DNA of 64,000 bases from Salinibacter grassmerensis (GTDB lineage Bacteria; Bacteroidota; Rhodothermia; Rhodothermales; Salinibacteraceae). The notes under the pieces are model-generated. The model was not told where the DNA came from and did no database searches. It saw nothing but the letters and a program-made list of their open reading frames with translations. Position numbers and translations under genes: made by a program. The stretch covers positions 346,818-410,817 of the forward strand of contig NZ_CAMTTF010000001.1 of NCBI RefSeq assembly GCF_947077765.1, read 5' to 3'. Below are positions 16,538 to 22,214 of the stretch, piece by piece. Every line of letters starts with the position of its first letter. The stretch's first letter is position 1.

Positions 16538-17317
16538 ATGGGATCCACTGACTTGAGCGATCTGAAGGACCGGTCCGAACGGATCCGGTTGGGCCGCAAG
16601 GTGCGCGCCTACTTCGTGCACCTGTTTACGGCCTCCGGGGTGGCGTTCGCGTTTCTGGCAATGCGGGAGGTCGTGCGGGTCGACCTGGATCCGCGGTGGG
16701 TCTTCGCCTGGCTGACCCTGGCCGTCTTCATCGACGCGGCGGACGGGCCCCTGGCACGGCTCTGGGACGTGAAGCTCTACGCCTCCCGCATTCTGGGCAA
16801 GACCATCGACCTGATCGTCGACTACCTGACGTTCACGTTCATTCCCCTCGTGCTCGTGTGGCGGATGGACTGGCTCCCGGGGTGGGACGGCCTCTGGGTC
16901 ACGCTCGCGATGGTGGCCAGCCTCCTGGGGTTTGCCAACACCGCAGCGAAGCAGAGTCAGGAGGGCTTCTTTCTCGGCTTCCCGTCGTACTGGAACGTGG
17001 TGGCGTACTACGTGGGCCTGCTCGCCGTCGAGTACGGGGGCGTTGGGTCCTACATGTCGCTGGGGTCGGTTCTTACCCTGACCGTCTTGACGCTGGTGCC
17101 GGTCCGGTTTGTCTACCCGAACGCCGCCCCGAAGCCATGGCGCGCCATCGTGACGGTGGGGGGCGTTGCGTGGCTCGGGCTGCTGCTGGCGCTGCTGCCC
17201 ACCTTTCCCGGGCTGCCGGCGTGGGGCGGCGACTGGGTCCTCTGGGCGTCGTTCGTGTACCCCGTGTTCTACTTCGGCCTCTCCGGCTGGCTGGACTGGA
17301 CGAGCCGGCAGTCGTAG
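16538..17317 (+). CDS. Phosphatidylcholine-synthase-like CDP-alcohol phosphatidyltransferase
   Basis: A 259-residue membrane protein of the CDP-alcohol phosphatidyltransferase family. The catalytic pattern is DAADGPLARLWDV followed by GKTIDLIVDY (residues about 66-105), matching the DG-AR-G-D-D arrangement. The segment FLGFPSYWNVVAYY and the N-terminal AYFVHLFTASG are typical of bacterial phosphatidylcholine synthases (Pcs), which join CDP-diacylglycerol to choline. This makes a PC synthase more likely than a phosphatidylserine or phosphatidylglycerophosphate synthase, although the family assignment does not prove choline as the substrate. Around seven to eight hydrophobic helices. It stands alone and converges on the sulfur operon. 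Confidence 0.8.
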   Translation: MGSTDLSDLKDRSERIRLGRKVRAYFVHLFTASGVAFAFLAMREVVRVDLDPRWVFAWLTLAVFIDAADGPLARLWDVKLYASRILGKTIDLIVDYLTFTFIPLVLVWRMDWLPGWDGLWVTLAMVASLLGFANTAAKQSQEGFFLGFPSYWNVVAYYVGLLAVEYGGVGSYMSLGSVLTLTVLTLVPVRFVYPNAAPKPWRAIVTVGGVAWLGLLLALLPTFPGLPAWGGDWVLWASFVYPVFYFGLSGWLDWTSRQS

Positions 17318-17380: not shown

Positions 17381-17884
17381 TCACATCTGTCGCCGACCTC
17401 GCTTGGCGGTGATGACGCCGGTATTCATGCCCATCCAGTGCATACCGCCCTGGAAGCGGCCGTGCTCCATCTTCATGCAGCGGTCCATCACCACGTCGAG
17501 CCCGTGGCCGTCGGCAATCTCGGCCGCCTCCGGGCTCGCGATGCCGAGCTGTAGCCAGAGGGCGTCGGCCCCAATCGCGGCCGCCTGCTCCGCGTACGTG
17601 GGGCATTCGTGCGGGGGGCGGAAGACGTCAACCACATCGACCGGAACGGGAACGCTCTCCAGGTCCGGGTAGGCGGTCTCGCCGAGAATCGAGTCCGCCT
17701 TCGGATGGACGGGGATGAGGCGATACCCCTGATACTGCAGGTACGTCGCCACAAACTGGCTCGCCTTCTGCGGGTTGGAGGACAGTCCCACCATCGCGAT
17801 GGTGTCTGCCTCCCGAAGAAGGCGGCGAATCGTGTCGGGGTGTTGATACTGCTCTTGTTGCTCCGGGGAGAGCGAGGAGTTCAT
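17381..17884 (-). CDS. CoA-binding (YccU-like) protein
   Basis: A 167-residue single-domain protein with the CoA-binding Rossmann fold: VGLSSNPQKASQ near the N terminus, VHPKADSILGETAYPDLESVP in the middle and VVMDRCMKMEH near the end. Such stand-alone domains bind CoA or related nucleotides; their function is not established. The ATG at 17884 overlaps the metY stop codon (ATGA), so the two genes are translationally coupled, and it is the last gene of the sulfur operon. Coupling suggests a role linked to sulfur or acyl-homoserine metabolism, but that is inference. Confidence 0.85.
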   Translation of the reverse strand: MNSSLSPEQQEQYQHPDTIRRLLREADTIAMVGLSSNPQKASQFVATYLQYQGYRLIPVHPKADSILGETAYPDLESVPVPVDVVDVFRPPHECPTYAEQAAAIGADALWLQLGIASPEAAEIADGHGLDVVMDRCMKMEHGRFQGGMHWMGMNTGVITAKRGRRQM

Positions 17885-19242
17885 TGCGAGATCGCATGTA
17901 GGGCCTGATCCAGATCCCATAGCAGGTCGTTGGTGTCTTCGAGTCCAATGGAAAGGCGAATCATTCCCGGCGAGAGGCCGCTCGACCGCATCTCCTCCTC
18001 GGAGAGCTGCTGGTGCGTCGTAGAGGCCGGGTGCAGCACCAAGCTCCGCGCATCGCCCACGTTGGCGAGGTGTGAGAAGAGCTGAAGGTTCTCGATGAAG
18101 GTCGTTCCCGCGGCGCGTGGGTCCTGCCCGTCGGGGCTTAGCTCAAAGGTGAAGATGGCGCCGGGGCCCTTGGGCAGGTACTTTTGGGCAAGGGCGTGGT
18201 ACGGATTGTCGGAGAGCCCGGGGTAGGCCACATTCTCGACGAGCGGATGTTCGTCGAGGTGCTTGGCCACGGCCTGGGCGTTGTCCACGTGCCGCTCCAT
18301 GCGGACAGAGAGGGTCTCCAGCCCCTGGATGAGTTGGAACGCGTTGAAGGGGGACATGCTGGCTCCGGTGTCGCGGAGTGTCTCGGCCCGGGCCTTCATG
18401 AGGTAGCCCTGGTGGCCGAACGTGTCCGGGAATCGGAGGCCGTGGTAGGAGTCCGAAGGCTCGGCCACCGTGTCGATGGTGGTAAAGTCGAACGAGCCTC
18501 CGTCCAGCACGACGCCCCCGATGGAGGTGCCGTGGCCGCCGATGAACTTGGTTGCGGACTGGACGACGAGCGACGCTCCCCAGTCGAGGGGGCGGCAGAG
18601 GTAGGGCGTCGCAAAGGTGTTGTCGATAAGGAGCGGGAGGCCGTGGGCGTCGGCCAGCTCCGCGAGCGGCTCAAAGTCCAACACGCTCCCCTGCGGATTA
18701 CCGATCGTCTCCCCGTAGAGCACCTTCGTGTCGTCCGTAATGGCCGCGTCCCACGCGTCCAGGTCGTTCGGCTCCACGAACGAGGCCTCGACGCTCAGCT
18801 TCTGAAACGTGTTCGTGAAGAGGGTGCGCGTGCCGCCGTAGAGGTGCGCGGAGGCCACGATCTCGTCGCCGGGCTCCAGCAGCGTCATCAGGGCCACGAG
18901 TTCGGCCGCCATCCCGCTGGCGGTTGCCACCGCCCCCACGGCGTTTGCAAGGGACGCGACCCGTTCCTCGAAGGCCGCCGTCGTCGGGTTGTTGATCCGG
19001 GTGTAGATGTTGCCGTACGCCTTCAGCTCAAAGAGCTGGGCGGCGTAGTTGGTGTCGTCAAAGACGTACGAGGTTGTCTGGTGGATGGGTACGGCCCGCG
19101 ATCCCGTCTCGGCGTCGGGGACGTGGCCGGCGTGGAGCATCCGGGTTTCGAATCCGAAGTCGCGTCCGGCCCCGGCAGCAGACGGGGCCCCGTTGGACGG
19201 AGGGGACGAGGAGGCGGGTGATGTGTCGGAATCGGGGGGCAT
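17881..19242 (-). CDS. metY: O-acetylhomoserine sulfhydrylase (MetY-type)
   Basis: A 453-residue PLP enzyme of the Cys/Met metabolism family. It is expected to make homocysteine from O-acetyl-homoserine and sulfide. The PLP lysine is K232 in SATKFIGGHG; other family segments are HQTTSYVF, YTRINNPTTAAFEERVA, ATASGMAAE, YGGTRTLF and GNPQGSVLD. Length and the long C-terminal domain fit MetY (about 430 residues) better than cystathionine gamma-synthase (about 380). The ATG at 19242 leaves an acidic Ser/Pro-rich tail of about 30 residues before the conserved core. It lies 104 bases behind the flavin reductase gene, in an apparent operon for sulfur scavenging, and could consume sulfide derived from the sulfite released upstream. 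Confidence 0.9.
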   Translation of the reverse strand: MPPDSDTSPASSSPPSNGAPSAAGAGRDFGFETRMLHAGHVPDAETGSRAVPIHQTTSYVFDDTNYAAQLFELKAYGNIYTRINNPTTAAFEERVASLANAVGAVATASGMAAELVALMTLLEPGDEIVASAHLYGGTRTLFTNTFQKLSVEASFVEPNDLDAWDAAITDDTKVLYGETIGNPQGSVLDFEPLAELADAHGLPLLIDNTFATPYLCRPLDWGASLVVQSATKFIGGHGTSIGGVVLDGGSFDFTTIDTVAEPSDSYHGLRFPDTFGHQGYLMKARAETLRDTGASMSPFNAFQLIQGLETLSVRMERHVDNAQAVAKHLDEHPLVENVAYPGLSDNPYHALAQKYLPKGPGAIFTFELSPDGQDPRAAGTTFIENLQLFSHLANVGDARSLVLHPASTTHQQLSEEEMRSSGLSPGMIRLSIGLEDTNDLLWDLDQALHAISQ

Positions 19243-19346: not shown

Positions 19347-19868
19347 TCAACCGGTGGAGTGGGAGTCGGCAGGGGCACTCACGCTCCGATAGTCCTGGTC
19401 GTAGTACAGGAGCGGGCGGGCCTCGTCGCGCTCCTCCAGCTGAGTTACGCGGCCCACGACGATGTCGTGGTCCCCGGCCGCAAAGGCTTCGTGCCAGTGA
19501 CACTGGAGAACGGCCGGAGCTGATTCGAGGATGGGGGTTCCGTGCGTGTCGGTGTGGTACGTCACCGCTGCGAGCTGGTCGGGGCCGGACTGGTCCGGAA
19601 CGGCGAAGTGCTGGCAGAGCTCGGACTGCCGGTCGGCCAGCAGGTGGACGGCAAAATGGGAGGCCTTCGCCAGCACTGCGTGCATCTGGCTGTCCTTCTC
19701 GACGTTGAACGAAACGAGCGGAGGATCCAATGAGACGCTGGTGAGGGAGCCAATCGTGGCGCCGCGTGCCTCCGAGCGCCCCGCGGCGGTAACGACCGTC
19801 ACGGGGGATGGGACGCGCTGCATCACGCTGCGGAGGTCCTCACCGGCAATGGAAGGTCCTGTGGGCAT
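19347..19868 (-). CDS. Flavin reductase-like domain protein
   Basis: A 173-residue single-domain protein of the flavin reductase (FMN-binding split barrel) family. The pattern RVPSPVTVVTA, GATIGSLTSVSLDPPLVSFNV, FAVHLLADRQ and GDHDIVVGRV is typical of the small subunit that supplies reduced FMN to a two-component monooxygenase. It lies 72 bases downstream of an NAD(P)H-dependent FMN reductase gene and in the same operon as a predicted FMNH2-dependent dimethylsulfone monooxygenase, its likely client. Why the operon holds two different reductases is unclear; one might serve a second monooxygenase elsewhere. Confidence 0.87.
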   Translation of the reverse strand: MPTGPSIAGEDLRSVMQRVPSPVTVVTAAGRSEARGATIGSLTSVSLDPPLVSFNVEKDSQMHAVLAKASHFAVHLLADRQSELCQHFAVPDQSGPDQLAAVTYHTDTHGTPILESAPAVLQCHWHEAFAAGDHDIVVGRVTQLEERDEARPLLYYDQDYRSVSAPADSHSTG

Positions 19869-19940: not shown

Positions 19941-20534
19941 TTAAAACTGTGGGCCCAACTCCGACAGGGCACCGCTGTCCTCGATGGCCCGGTGCAGGTC
20001 GACCGTCGCCACGCCGAGGGTGCGGAGGCGCTCGCGTACCGTGTCGTCCGTCAGGGTGCGGTCGTCGCCGTAGTGGTCGCCGTGGACGTACGTGCCGCTG
20101 CCGACCAGGTGAGCGCCGAAGAAGGAAAGCACGGGGGCAAGCTCCTTCTCGACCGTGAGGTAATGGTGCGGGGTTGCCCCCGTCCCCACGAGTCCCGCGG
20201 CACTGTTTGCCAACGGGGCCACATCGGCCTGCCACATGCCACGGGGGATCATGTCGAACAAGTTTTTCAGAGTGCCCGCGTAGGAGGCCCGGTACACCGG
20301 GGTGCCGATGATGTAGGCCGAACCGTCGATGATGCGCTTTAGGGCCTCGGCCGTATCACCGGTGTAGTGTTCCAGCGACCGTCCGTCGGCAGGATCGAGG
20401 TCATACTCGGCCAGGTGAAGGACCTCCGTGTCCACCTCGCGCTCCGCCGCGGCGGCGTCCAGGGCCACCTCGACGGCAGCACGGGTGTTGGAGGGGGCGG
20501 AGAGGCTTCCGACAATGCCCAGGATGTCACTCAT
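19941..20534 (-). CDS. NAD(P)H-dependent FMN reductase (SsuE/MsuE-like)
   Basis: A 197-residue flavodoxin-fold reductase. The N-terminal phosphate-binding loop is GSLSAPSNTR, and the middle GTPVYRASYAGTLKNLFD is the flavin-binding signature of the SsuE/MsuE group, which reduces FMN for alkanesulfonate, methanesulfonate and dimethylsulfone monooxygenases. The ATG at 20534 sets the first strand at the usual distance from the N terminus. It follows the sfnG-like gene by 127 bases, a spacer that contains a stem-loop. Context and family agree on delivery of FMNH2 to the neighbouring monooxygenase. Confidence 0.9.
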   Translation of the reverse strand: MSDILGIVGSLSAPSNTRAAVEVALDAAAAEREVDTEVLHLAEYDLDPADGRSLEHYTGDTAEALKRIIDGSAYIIGTPVYRASYAGTLKNLFDMIPRGMWQADVAPLANSAAGLVGTGATPHHYLTVEKELAPVLSFFGAHLVGSGTYVHGDHYGDDRTLTDDTVRERLRTLGVATVDLHRAIEDSGALSELGPQF

Positions 20535-20661: not shown

Positions 20662-21747
20662 TTATGCCGGCACCGCCTCCTCCGGGCGATCCAGCGGCTC
20701 GGCCTCCCGCACGGCCGGGATGATCTCCTCCCCGAAGTGGGGAAGTTCATCCTCGTAGTGCAGGAAGCCGGTCAGGACGAGGTCCACCCCGATGGCGTCG
20801 AGCCGGCGGATGCGCTCCACGACTTGCTCCTTCGTCCCGATGAGGCCAGTGCGAAAGCCGTCGTTGTACTGGACGAGGTCTTCGAATTCGGAGTCGTCCC
20901 ACATGCCCTCGCCTTCGGGGGAGGCCTGTCCGGCCTGTTTGACCTGCTCCTTGAAGCCTTCGACCGCCTCCTCGGTGGCGTGCTCGATGATGTTTTCGAG
21001 CACCTGCTTGGCCTCGGCTTCCGTGTCGCGCACGATGACGAACGAGTTGACGCCGATTTTGGGCGGCTCGACGCCGAACTCGCGGGCGTACCCGTTCACG
21101 TCGTCGATGATGCCCTTCAGGTCTTCGAGGCTTCCGCCGTTGATGAAGAACCAGTCGGAGGCGCGGGCGGCCATGCGCCGGGCACGCTTCGAGTTGCCTC
21201 CCTGAAAGATGTCGGGGGGCGTCTCGGGCGTGGGCTCGCAGGGGGCCTCGTCGATCTGGTAGAAGCGCCCGTCGTAGCTGAAGAGGTCTTCGGTCCAGAG
21301 GCCTTTCAGGACCTCAATGAACTCTTCGCTGCGCTCGTAGCGTTCGTCGTGGGCGAGCCAGGGCTCGCCGAAGCGGGTATATTCGCCCTTGAACCAGCCG
21401 CTGACTACATTGAGGTGGAAGCGGCCGTTACTGATGTGGTCCGCCGTCGAGACAAAGTTGGCGATGGGCCCAGGCTTCCACTGGCCCGGGTGCACGGCCC
21501 CGATGAGACGCAGTTTCTCGGTGTGCGAGGCCAGTGCATTGGCGACCGAAAGGGCCTCCAGCTGCTTCTCAGCGTTGTAACTGCCAAAAAAGCGGGCCTG
21601 GGCGAGGGCGTATTCGAAGCCAATCTCTTCGGCCGTCTGCGCGATCTCTTTGTTAAAGGGCCATTTCCAGTCGGTCTTCATCGGCCAGTCGGTGATGACG
21701 AGGCCGCCGCTAACGTTGGGGACCCAGTACGCAAATGTGGTATCCAT
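20662..21747 (-). CDS. sfnG: FMNH2-dependent dimethylsulfone monooxygenase (SfnG-like)
   Basis: A 361-residue bacterial-luciferase-like TIM-barrel monooxygenase. FAYWVPNVSGGLV at the N terminus, the IVSGWFKGEF-type segment (here VVSGWFKGEYTRFGEPWL) and HDERYERSEEFI are the pattern I recall for SfnG, which oxidises dimethylsulfone to methanesulfinate, rather than SsuD or MsuD. This would let the cell recover sulfur from DMSO2, a breakdown product of marine dimethylsulfide. The ATG at 21747 is preferred: it starts the conserved core at once and has AAGGAG ten bases upstream. First gene of the sulfur operon, preceded by the Cys-peptide leader. Alkanesulfonate monooxygenase is the main alternative. 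Confidence 0.88.
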   Translation of the reverse strand: MDTTFAYWVPNVSGGLVITDWPMKTDWKWPFNKEIAQTAEEIGFEYALAQARFFGSYNAEKQLEALSVANALASHTEKLRLIGAVHPGQWKPGPIANFVSTADHISNGRFHLNVVSGWFKGEYTRFGEPWLAHDERYERSEEFIEVLKGLWTEDLFSYDGRFYQIDEAPCEPTPETPPDIFQGGNSKRARRMAARASDWFFINGGSLEDLKGIIDDVNGYAREFGVEPPKIGVNSFVIVRDTEAEAKQVLENIIEHATEEAVEGFKEQVKQAGQASPEGEGMWDDSEFEDLVQYNDGFRTGLIGTKEQVVERIRRLDAIGVDLVLTGFLHYEDELPHFGEEIIPAVREAEPLDRPEEAVPA

Positions 21748-21757
21748 GGTGTGAACG

Positions 21758-21810
21758 CTCCTTCGGGTAAGGGAATGCGGGTGGAAAGCGCCGCGCACCT
21801 GCCGAAGGAG
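21758..21810 (-). promoter_or_regulatory. Hairpin sequestering the sfnG ribosome binding site
   Basis: On the minus strand CTCCTTCGG (21810-21802) is perfectly complementary to CCGAAGGAG (21766-21758), which holds the AAGGAG ribosome binding site of sfnG; flanking GTGA and TTCAC can extend the helix. The 5' arm begins just after the U tract of the upstream terminator. The 5' arm (with its flank GTGACTCC) can instead pair with GGAGTAC, the top of the terminator's 3' arm. Switching function is inferred from complementarity. Confidence 0.5.
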
Positions 21811-21814
21811 TCAC

Positions 21815-21850
21815 AAAAAAAGCCTGTACTCCGGCGGCAGGAGCACAGGC
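21815..21850 (-). terminator. Intrinsic terminator in the sulfur-operon leader (attenuator)
   Basis: Minus-strand GCCTGTGCTCC pairs along its whole length with GGAGTACAGGC (ten Watson-Crick pairs and one G-U) around a 7-base loop, followed directly by seven T. This is a textbook Rho-independent terminator. It lies 33 bases after the stop of the Cys-rich leader peptide and 67 bases before sfnG, with no other gene ending between, so it is positioned to control read-through into the operon. Confidence 0.85.
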
Positions 21851-21883
21851 ATAAGCGTAGTAGAATGGGACGACGGTTACCTC

Positions 21884-21952
21884 TCACTCCACAGCGCGCA
21901 CGGGCTCCTCCGGGGGACACATACATGTGTCACCACAACACAGACACAGCAT
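21884..21952 (-). CDS. Cysteine-rich leader peptide of the sulfur operon
   Basis: A 22-codon ORF from ATG at 21952 to TGA. Its N terminus reads MLCLCCGDTCMC: Cys at positions 3, 5, 6, 10 and 12, all TGT. The remaining ten residues are PPEEPVRAVE. Five Cys codons in twelve are far beyond chance in an organism whose proteins are poor in Cys. It ends 33 bases before a strong intrinsic terminator and precedes a sulfur-acquisition operon, the arrangement of leader-peptide attenuation: scarcity of charged tRNA-Cys would stall ribosomes here. GGAGGAGC at codons 14-17 can pair with GCTCCTGCC of the terminator's 5' arm as an antiterminator. GACACA and TGTGTC within the Cys codons form another hairpin. 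No clear Shine-Dalgarno precedes it. The 262 bases upstream, to the lipoprotein gene, hold no gene I recognise. Confidence 0.75.
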   Translation of the reverse strand: MLCLCCGDTCMCPPEEPVRAVE

Positions 21953-22214
21953 GCCGTGGCGGCGGCTGCGCTGGATGGACGGAGAAAGCGTCTGCACGAA
22001 CAAGGGGGTTAGGGAGAGAAGACTTCGGTAACCACTCCCCTGAATATCACGAGGCCGAAAGATGTTGCGGTGTCGTGCCAGGGTTTGCCATCCTTATTTT
22101 CTTCTTAACACATGGGGCCGGACGTACACGCGGCGGATGATTTGGGGGTCCCGACGCGGCATCCATGACATTGCGGGGAGAGGACAGGGTTGCGAGTGTG
22201 TCCCTGCGCCGGAG

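Follow-up and report, generated by a model that had tools for sequence, protein, structure and literature searches.

A probable cysteine-codon attenuator before a sulfur-scavenging operon in Salinibacter grassmerensis, with counterparts at sulfur genes across Rhodothermia

In this study, we have analysed a 64,000-nucleotide stretch of the Salinibacter grassmerensis genome (hereafter, the window) and found, before an operon for sulfur scavenging, a short open reading frame (ORF) rich in Cys codons, an intrinsic terminator behind it and a possible pairing between the two, in a design that is conserved in relatives and placed there, too, before sulfur genes. Judged from sequence comparison, this element is most probably a ribosome-mediated transcription attenuator of the trp type (probability about 0.87), in which the regulatory codons would be those for Cys, joined by those for Met in most relatives. 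Attenuators of this kind are known; the set of amino acids that would be sensed, the lineage and the regulon appear to be new.

The initial annotation had pointed to a 22-codon ORF with five TGT codons in twelve, whose stop lies 33 bases before an eleven-pair terminator with seven T residues, and it was right on each count. The ORF (MLCLCCGDTCMCPPEEPVRAVE) occupies 21884..21952 on the minus strand, from an ATG at 21952 to a TGA at 21886-21884, and has TGT at codons 3, 5, 6, 10 and 12, the last Cys thus being codon 12 of 22. After a spacer of 33 nt (21883-21851) comes the terminator (21850-21815), comprising a hairpin of 11 pairs with a 7-nt loop (21822..21850, minus strand; -21.0 kcal/mol) and the tract TTTTTTT (21815..21821, minus strand). 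The leader ORF, with three nested starts, is the sole short ORF of the 64 kb window to have at least five Cys in 12 codons, and 40 dinucleotide shuffles of the window gave a mean of 0.2 such ORFs, with a terminator behind in 0/40. Its start codon is uncertain: besides the ATG at 21952, an in-frame GTG at 21997 or TTG at 22003 would give an ORF of 37 or 39 codons, the frame being open throughout this possible N-terminal extension (21953..22003, minus strand), which is 96% identical in the sibling genome G010. No sigma-70-type promoter match was found upstream of the window leader, and we have counted this against the attenuator reading. In G010, the leader ORF is identical at 69/69 bases and the terminator hairpin is retained with a single loop change, while the upstream neighbour gene is 82% identical. 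As this gradient of identity may partly stem from recombination of the operon, the identity of the leader alone is weak evidence.

The mechanism that we propose follows the trp model, and for the translation of the leader, the stalling, the signal and the antitermination in the cell we infer the following. When charged tRNA-Cys is ample, the leading ribosome would reach the stop codon and cover region 2, so that the terminator (3:4) would form and transcription would end before sfnG. When charged tRNA-Cys is scarce, the ribosome would stall at codons 3-6, region 2 (GGAGGAGC; 21904..21911, minus strand, codons 14-17) would act as the candidate antiterminator strand by pairing with region 3, and transcription would enter the sulfur-scavenging operon. 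Region 3 (21833..21850, minus strand) consists of the terminator 5' arm GCCTGTGCTCC and the loop TGCCGCC; GCTCCTGCC spans the end of this arm and part of the loop. The folding of the window leader was modelled with a placed ribosome, whose footprint was assumed to extend 12 nt past the A site. With the A site at codon 3, 5 or 6, about 10 region 2:3 pairs are expected; at codon 10 there are about 7, at codon 12 about 0.6 and at the stop codon none, the terminator then forming. Thus, in the model, the position of the ribosome decides between the 2:3 and the 3:4 fold, as in the antiterminators of known attenuators. As a ribosome stalled at codon 12 would hide region 2, codons 3, 5 and 6 would be the effective sensors, and codons 3-6 are the likely ones in this leader. 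The suggestion made at the outset, that stalling on the Cys codons frees region 2, therefore stands for codons 3, 5 and 6 in the folding but fails for codon 12.

The pairing of GGAGGAGC with the terminator 5' arm, also part of the initial annotation, fared similarly. It forms in the model when the ribosome sits at codon 3, 5 or 6 and has a strong equivalent in many relatives, but the window duplex of region 2 with 21850-21833 (-16.4 kcal/mol) is nearly matched by GC-rich dinucleotide shuffles (p about 0.12), so that in the window the predicted antiterminator is plausible and, on its own, short of significance. The terminator fold is favoured over the antiterminator at equilibrium (-41.6 versus -34.1 kcal/mol), and antitermination would therefore have to be kinetic, which is a common assumption for trp. 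For the window leader, the 1:2 helix does not reach significance, and the version with the extended start is no better than shuffles. Searches with the Rfam 15 covariance models at gathering thresholds found no RNA aptamer, riboswitch or T-box at the element. A known riboswitch at this site was rejected, as Rfam searches of the window and 22 loci returned only a distant TPP riboswitch (1914-2017 of the window, minus strand, 62.5 bits) and SAM riboswitches in three congeners.

Behind the leader lies an apparent operon, all of it on the minus strand, which bears out the annotation as a sulfur-recovery unit. Its first structural gene is sfnG (20662..21747), encoding dimethylsulfone monooxygenase (TIGR04021, E 2e-170, 567 bits against a cutoff of 383). 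It is followed by an NADPH-dependent FMN reductase of the MsuE/SsuE type (19941..20534, start approximate; PF03358, with TIGR03566 below cutoff), a flavin reductase (19347..19868; PF01613, E 2e-45), an O-acetylhomoserine/O-acetylserine (OAH/OAS) sulfhydrylase (17881..19239, start approximate; TIGR01326 above cutoff, E 4e-175) and, as the last gene, a CoA-binding protein (17381..17920; PF13380), which overlaps the sulfhydrylase gene. A similar CoA-binding gene adjoins OAH sulfhydrylase behind leaders in relatives. Thus, a leader with five Cys in twelve codons precedes genes for sulfur scavenging and an OAH/OAS sulfhydrylase, linking the operon to the amino acid of the leader. The window genome (G000) yielded no match to assimilatory sulfite reductase, even though its operon acts on oxidised organosulfur. 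Between the window and G010, sfnG is 97% identical, with 31 substitutions, every one at a third codon position, and the gene after it is 91% identical. The presumed sfnG start, ATG at 21747, reads ATA in G010, and for this reason the true start may lie elsewhere, an in-frame GTG at 21798 being a candidate. A phosphatidylcholine synthase-like gene (16538-17317, below the NCBIfam cutoffs) adjoins the end of the operon.

A comparison of sfnG units in related genomes had been proposed as a check, and when it was run the leader was kept wherever sfnG was kept. The search covered 245 genomes of the class and found sfnG in 14; in 14/14, a Cys-rich leader with a terminator heads the transcription unit. 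In eight of these the leader stands directly before sfnG (the window genome, G010 with its identical leader, G020 with MLSRMCCVCMRNCHCAEKATWSLG, four genomes of family f16 and G184), and in the other 6/14 it stands before an operon with sfnG further downstream. The sfnG leaders of family f16 include MRMFCSLYMCCMMALCCMPEYKKTTCKRAMLT and MQFFCSLYMCCMMDMACMPTYPNTACKRARVP, and loci L003 and L004 link two of the orthologues with direct leaders to Fodinibius roseus and F. sediminis. Six distant SfnG proteins (57-61% identity) have no leader adjoining sfnG; there, the gene order is a CoA-binding gene and OAH sulfhydrylase with sfnG behind, and a Cys/Met leader lies at the operon head in 6/6. In one example from this group, the operon-head leader MKLIAQNNIFSICMMCMCCHT is followed by TGCAGAGGGT and a terminator of the type CCCTCTGG...CAGGGCTTTTTT. 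Across genomes, the sequence of the sfnG leaders is almost wholly replaced, while the Cys codons and the terminator are retained. In G184, a tandem leader-terminator pair, MNFYYSPKIATDFMNSTCCMQMCMCMSCNFSLRNKGRII and MTGMMPCCGMCNSNLNQVRNEDSE, precedes a single sfnG (G184:C179:4575-5046; L014 ~992-1450).

Searches with RNA patterns support, by sequence comparison, the view that the leader system forms a regulon and is not special to sfnG. The first pattern, two Cys codons (TGYTGY) and a GCCCRC terminator, found leaders before genes for mercaptopyruvate/thiosulfate sulfurtransferase, sulfite reductase, uroporphyrinogen methyltransferase (siroheme), a CitMHS-type permease and a TonB-dependent receptor. 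Eight matches to TGYTGY (L025, L027, L029, L030, L040, L041, L043 and L050) were dropped as chance matches because no Cys-rich short ORF fitted them. The leader before the TonB-dependent receptor (L023) is Cys/Met-rich and has a terminator behind it, and the substrate of this receptor may be a sulfur compound. A copy of the terminator 3' arm, in the form of GGTAGTGG, GGCAGTGG or a sequence close to these, is present in most first-pattern leaders. The second pattern consisted of the region 2 copy and the terminator only, with Cys codons left out of its definition; it matched 28 distinct places in 23/245 genomes (reversed-pattern control, 0), and 28/28 fall inside a short ORF with 3-7 Cys codons. 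The genes behind these 28 leaders encode sulfurtransferase, sulfite reductase, siroheme synthase or permease. Furthermore, most leaders translate GGTAGTGG as GSG, whereas L087 and L093-L095 use another frame (VV); as the region 2 element is translated in different frames, it is the RNA that is conserved and not the peptide.

A wider scan of 395 genomes of the phylum also found leaders before OAH sulfhydrylase, with ICLCCMCMPMPYLQPED in f16 (Fodinibius-type) and MKNNNKMCCMMMMCMCAPP or MMMCCMMPMCIPIYCCRK in family f31, genus g103. Two genomes of the window's own order have sulfite reductase with a Cys leader and terminator. A profile search from eight sfnG-type leader peptides mostly returned known leaders again. 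The leader ORFs encode 18-53 residues, in which the spacing of the Cys residues, like the remaining peptide sequence, is free to vary. On this comparative evidence, the same switch most likely fronts at least six kinds of sulfur gene in the class and one in another, related family.

In the window's own genus, a leader precedes a sulfurtransferase gene in the window genome (MRHADVRSSHLSSSVWTLTAPVCLCSCLCGMIASCRG; L157, bases ~1093-1206), where it is the second Cys leader, and in seven congeners, and the gaps within this ORF are all of triplet length. In three congeners, a SAM riboswitch (RF00162, 68-70 bits; L112 673-803, L113 754-897 and L114 3392-3523, minus strand) lies before sulfite reductase, and a conserved Cys-rich mini-ORF starting MEICLC follows the riboswitch and its terminator. 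This arrangement suggests a possible two-input control of sulfite reductase. An obvious terminator is absent at the genus-level leaders before sulfurtransferase and sulfite reductase.

The competing pairing was assessed by folding each leader's region 2 with its own terminator 5' arm and comparing the result with dinucleotide shuffles. The 2:3 pairing beat the shuffles in 27/27 GG-type leaders, 4/4 OAH sulfhydrylase leaders of family f31 and 2/5 of those of f16; for the sfnG leaders, the window included, it was individually without significance (p 0.09-0.48). In most leader groups, pairing with the own arm was stronger than with the arms of other groups (-18.6 versus -11.9 kcal/mol for the GG type, and -14.3 versus -8.0 and -11.4 versus -6.4 kcal/mol for OAH sulfhydrylase leaders). 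Most sulfurtransferase leaders have a strong 1:2 helix on either side of the Cys codons (z down to -6.5), and so have 4/6 sfnG leaders of the Balneolales type. When 13 leaders were aligned with MAFFT, RNAalifold predicted the terminator alone because region 1 misaligns, and covariation in the 2:3 helix is weak in this set because most pairs are invariant. With regard to the amino acid sensed, Cys accounts for 15.9% of the residues in 47 leaders and internal Met for 14.1%, and 46/47 have at least two internal Met; the window leader, with only one, is an exception. As Met codons in the relatives are nearly as many as Cys codons, Met may be sensed too, and dual sensing of Cys and Met is possible from these counts; the Met codons could also have another role, such as keeping the loop unstructured.

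These comparisons bear directly on the other ways in which the element could be explained. The simplest, an ordinary terminator of the upstream gene with a chance ORF, draws on the same-strand gene that ends ~263 bases upstream of the leader ORF and on the frequency of intergenic terminators, but the combination occurred in 0/40 shuffled windows and a Cys ORF accompanies 14/14 sfnG units and 28/28 of the RNA-only matches; already contradicted by conservation, this explanation is barely credible. Alternatively, the nascent Cys/Met-rich peptide might itself act as the sensor of a ligand, be it copper, another soft metal or a sulfur compound, and so arrest or release the ribosome. Cys and Met are indeed soft-metal ligands, and a copper-responsive upstream ORF (DUF2946) has been described in Bordetella (PMC9426467). 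However, the downstream genes here are for sulfur assimilation, with 0 copper genes, so that the window differs from the Bordetella type with its copper genes downstream; moreover, the Cys spacing and the peptide are free to vary while region 2 is kept as RNA across frames. We regard a peptide sensor as improbable.

Slightly less probable again is that leader translation acts on sfnG through Rho-dependent termination or translational coupling, the hairpin being a partial terminator. Such a mode has been proposed for poly-Cys leaders in mycobacteria, where conserved hairpin terminators are absent from the cys leaders (PMC1262725); within the window's genus, the sulfurtransferase and sulfite reductase leaders also lack a clear one. 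Against this, strong hairpins with T tracts are present in the window unit and in more than 45 relatives, most of which carry a copy of the 3' arm as region 2. The reading as a Cys-codon attenuator is well supported by comparison.

Among known systems, the closest are the trp/his-type attenuators of Proteobacteria, together with ilvB in Corynebacterium and Mycobacterium, which share the leader ORF with regulatory codons, the intrinsic terminator and the competing antiterminator; as in many relatives of the window leader, they have a 1:2 helix, and their targets make the sensed nutrient. In trp-type attenuators, as in most of the leaders here, region 2 duplicates the terminator 3' arm. The leaders described here differ in that, by their codons and genes, they would sense Cys, and perhaps Met, and act on sulfur scavenging and assimilation, and in that they are found in Rhodothermia and, beyond it, in at least one further family of the phylum. 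Short Cys-codon-rich ORFs before sulfur genes are also found in the cys operons of actinobacteria (PMC1262725), as the initial annotation stated, but there the Cys runs lie close to the stop codon and conserved hairpin terminators are absent, and the mycobacterial ones are leaderless (poly-Cys ORFs of Canestrari 2020, as cited in PMC13236596). In the window, by contrast, the Cys codons lie upstream of region 2, away from the stop, and are accompanied by an intrinsic terminator and a candidate antiterminator. A tandem-Cys upstream ORF with two stems and a terminator, uORFC-8-2, has been proposed to act by ribosome-mediated attenuation before cysS in Rhodobacterales (PMC8632094). That system comprises two Cys codons before cysS only, in alphaproteobacteria, whereas the leaders here have 3-9 Cys codons and Met, precede several sulfur operons and, in the window, front sfnG in a Rhodothermia genome. 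Similarly, the S-box (SAM-I) riboswitch (RF00162) controls sulfur genes by transcription termination, but through an RNA aptamer, which the window element does not have.

According to a 2010 survey of premature terminators, leader-peptide systems were, to its authors' knowledge, unshown beyond Proteobacteria and Actinobacteria; the survey added Firmicutes, and its main text does not mention Salinibacter or Bacteroidetes (PMC2965389). A comparative study of attenuation in bacteria by Lopatovskaya and colleagues dates from the same year (2010; as cited in PMC4833913). Transcriptome papers on Flavobacterium and Bacteroides suggest leader-peptide attenuation, the passages concerned giving no Cys case (PMC9723704, PMC7366714). 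The statement in the initial annotation that no such leader was known in Rhodothermota agrees with the open-licence literature, where we found no relevant attenuation report for Rhodothermota or Balneolota, although one may exist elsewhere; the Cys-leader switch is apparently undescribed in Rhodothermia.

In model bacteria, sulfur assimilation is under the control of S-box riboswitches or of regulators, CysB and CymR among them. The distant group studied here seems to govern a large part of its sulfur regulon through charged tRNA-Cys, and perhaps tRNA-Met, read on short leader ORFs that are followed by terminators of the classical type. We hold it to be an evenly balanced proposition that leader peptides run a sulfur regulon throughout the clade. 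In such a regulon, attenuators with mixed Cys and Met codons, the majority having a duplicate of the terminator 3' arm as region 2, would act on at least six unlinked sulfur operons in Rhodothermia and, in another family of the phylum, on OAH sulfhydrylase; they would respond to both sulfur amino acids together and would, in some genomes, stand in tandem or behind a SAM riboswitch. The orthologous attenuators form a natural series for tests of mechanism, and the regulon offers a route to predicting sulfur genes in uncultured relatives.
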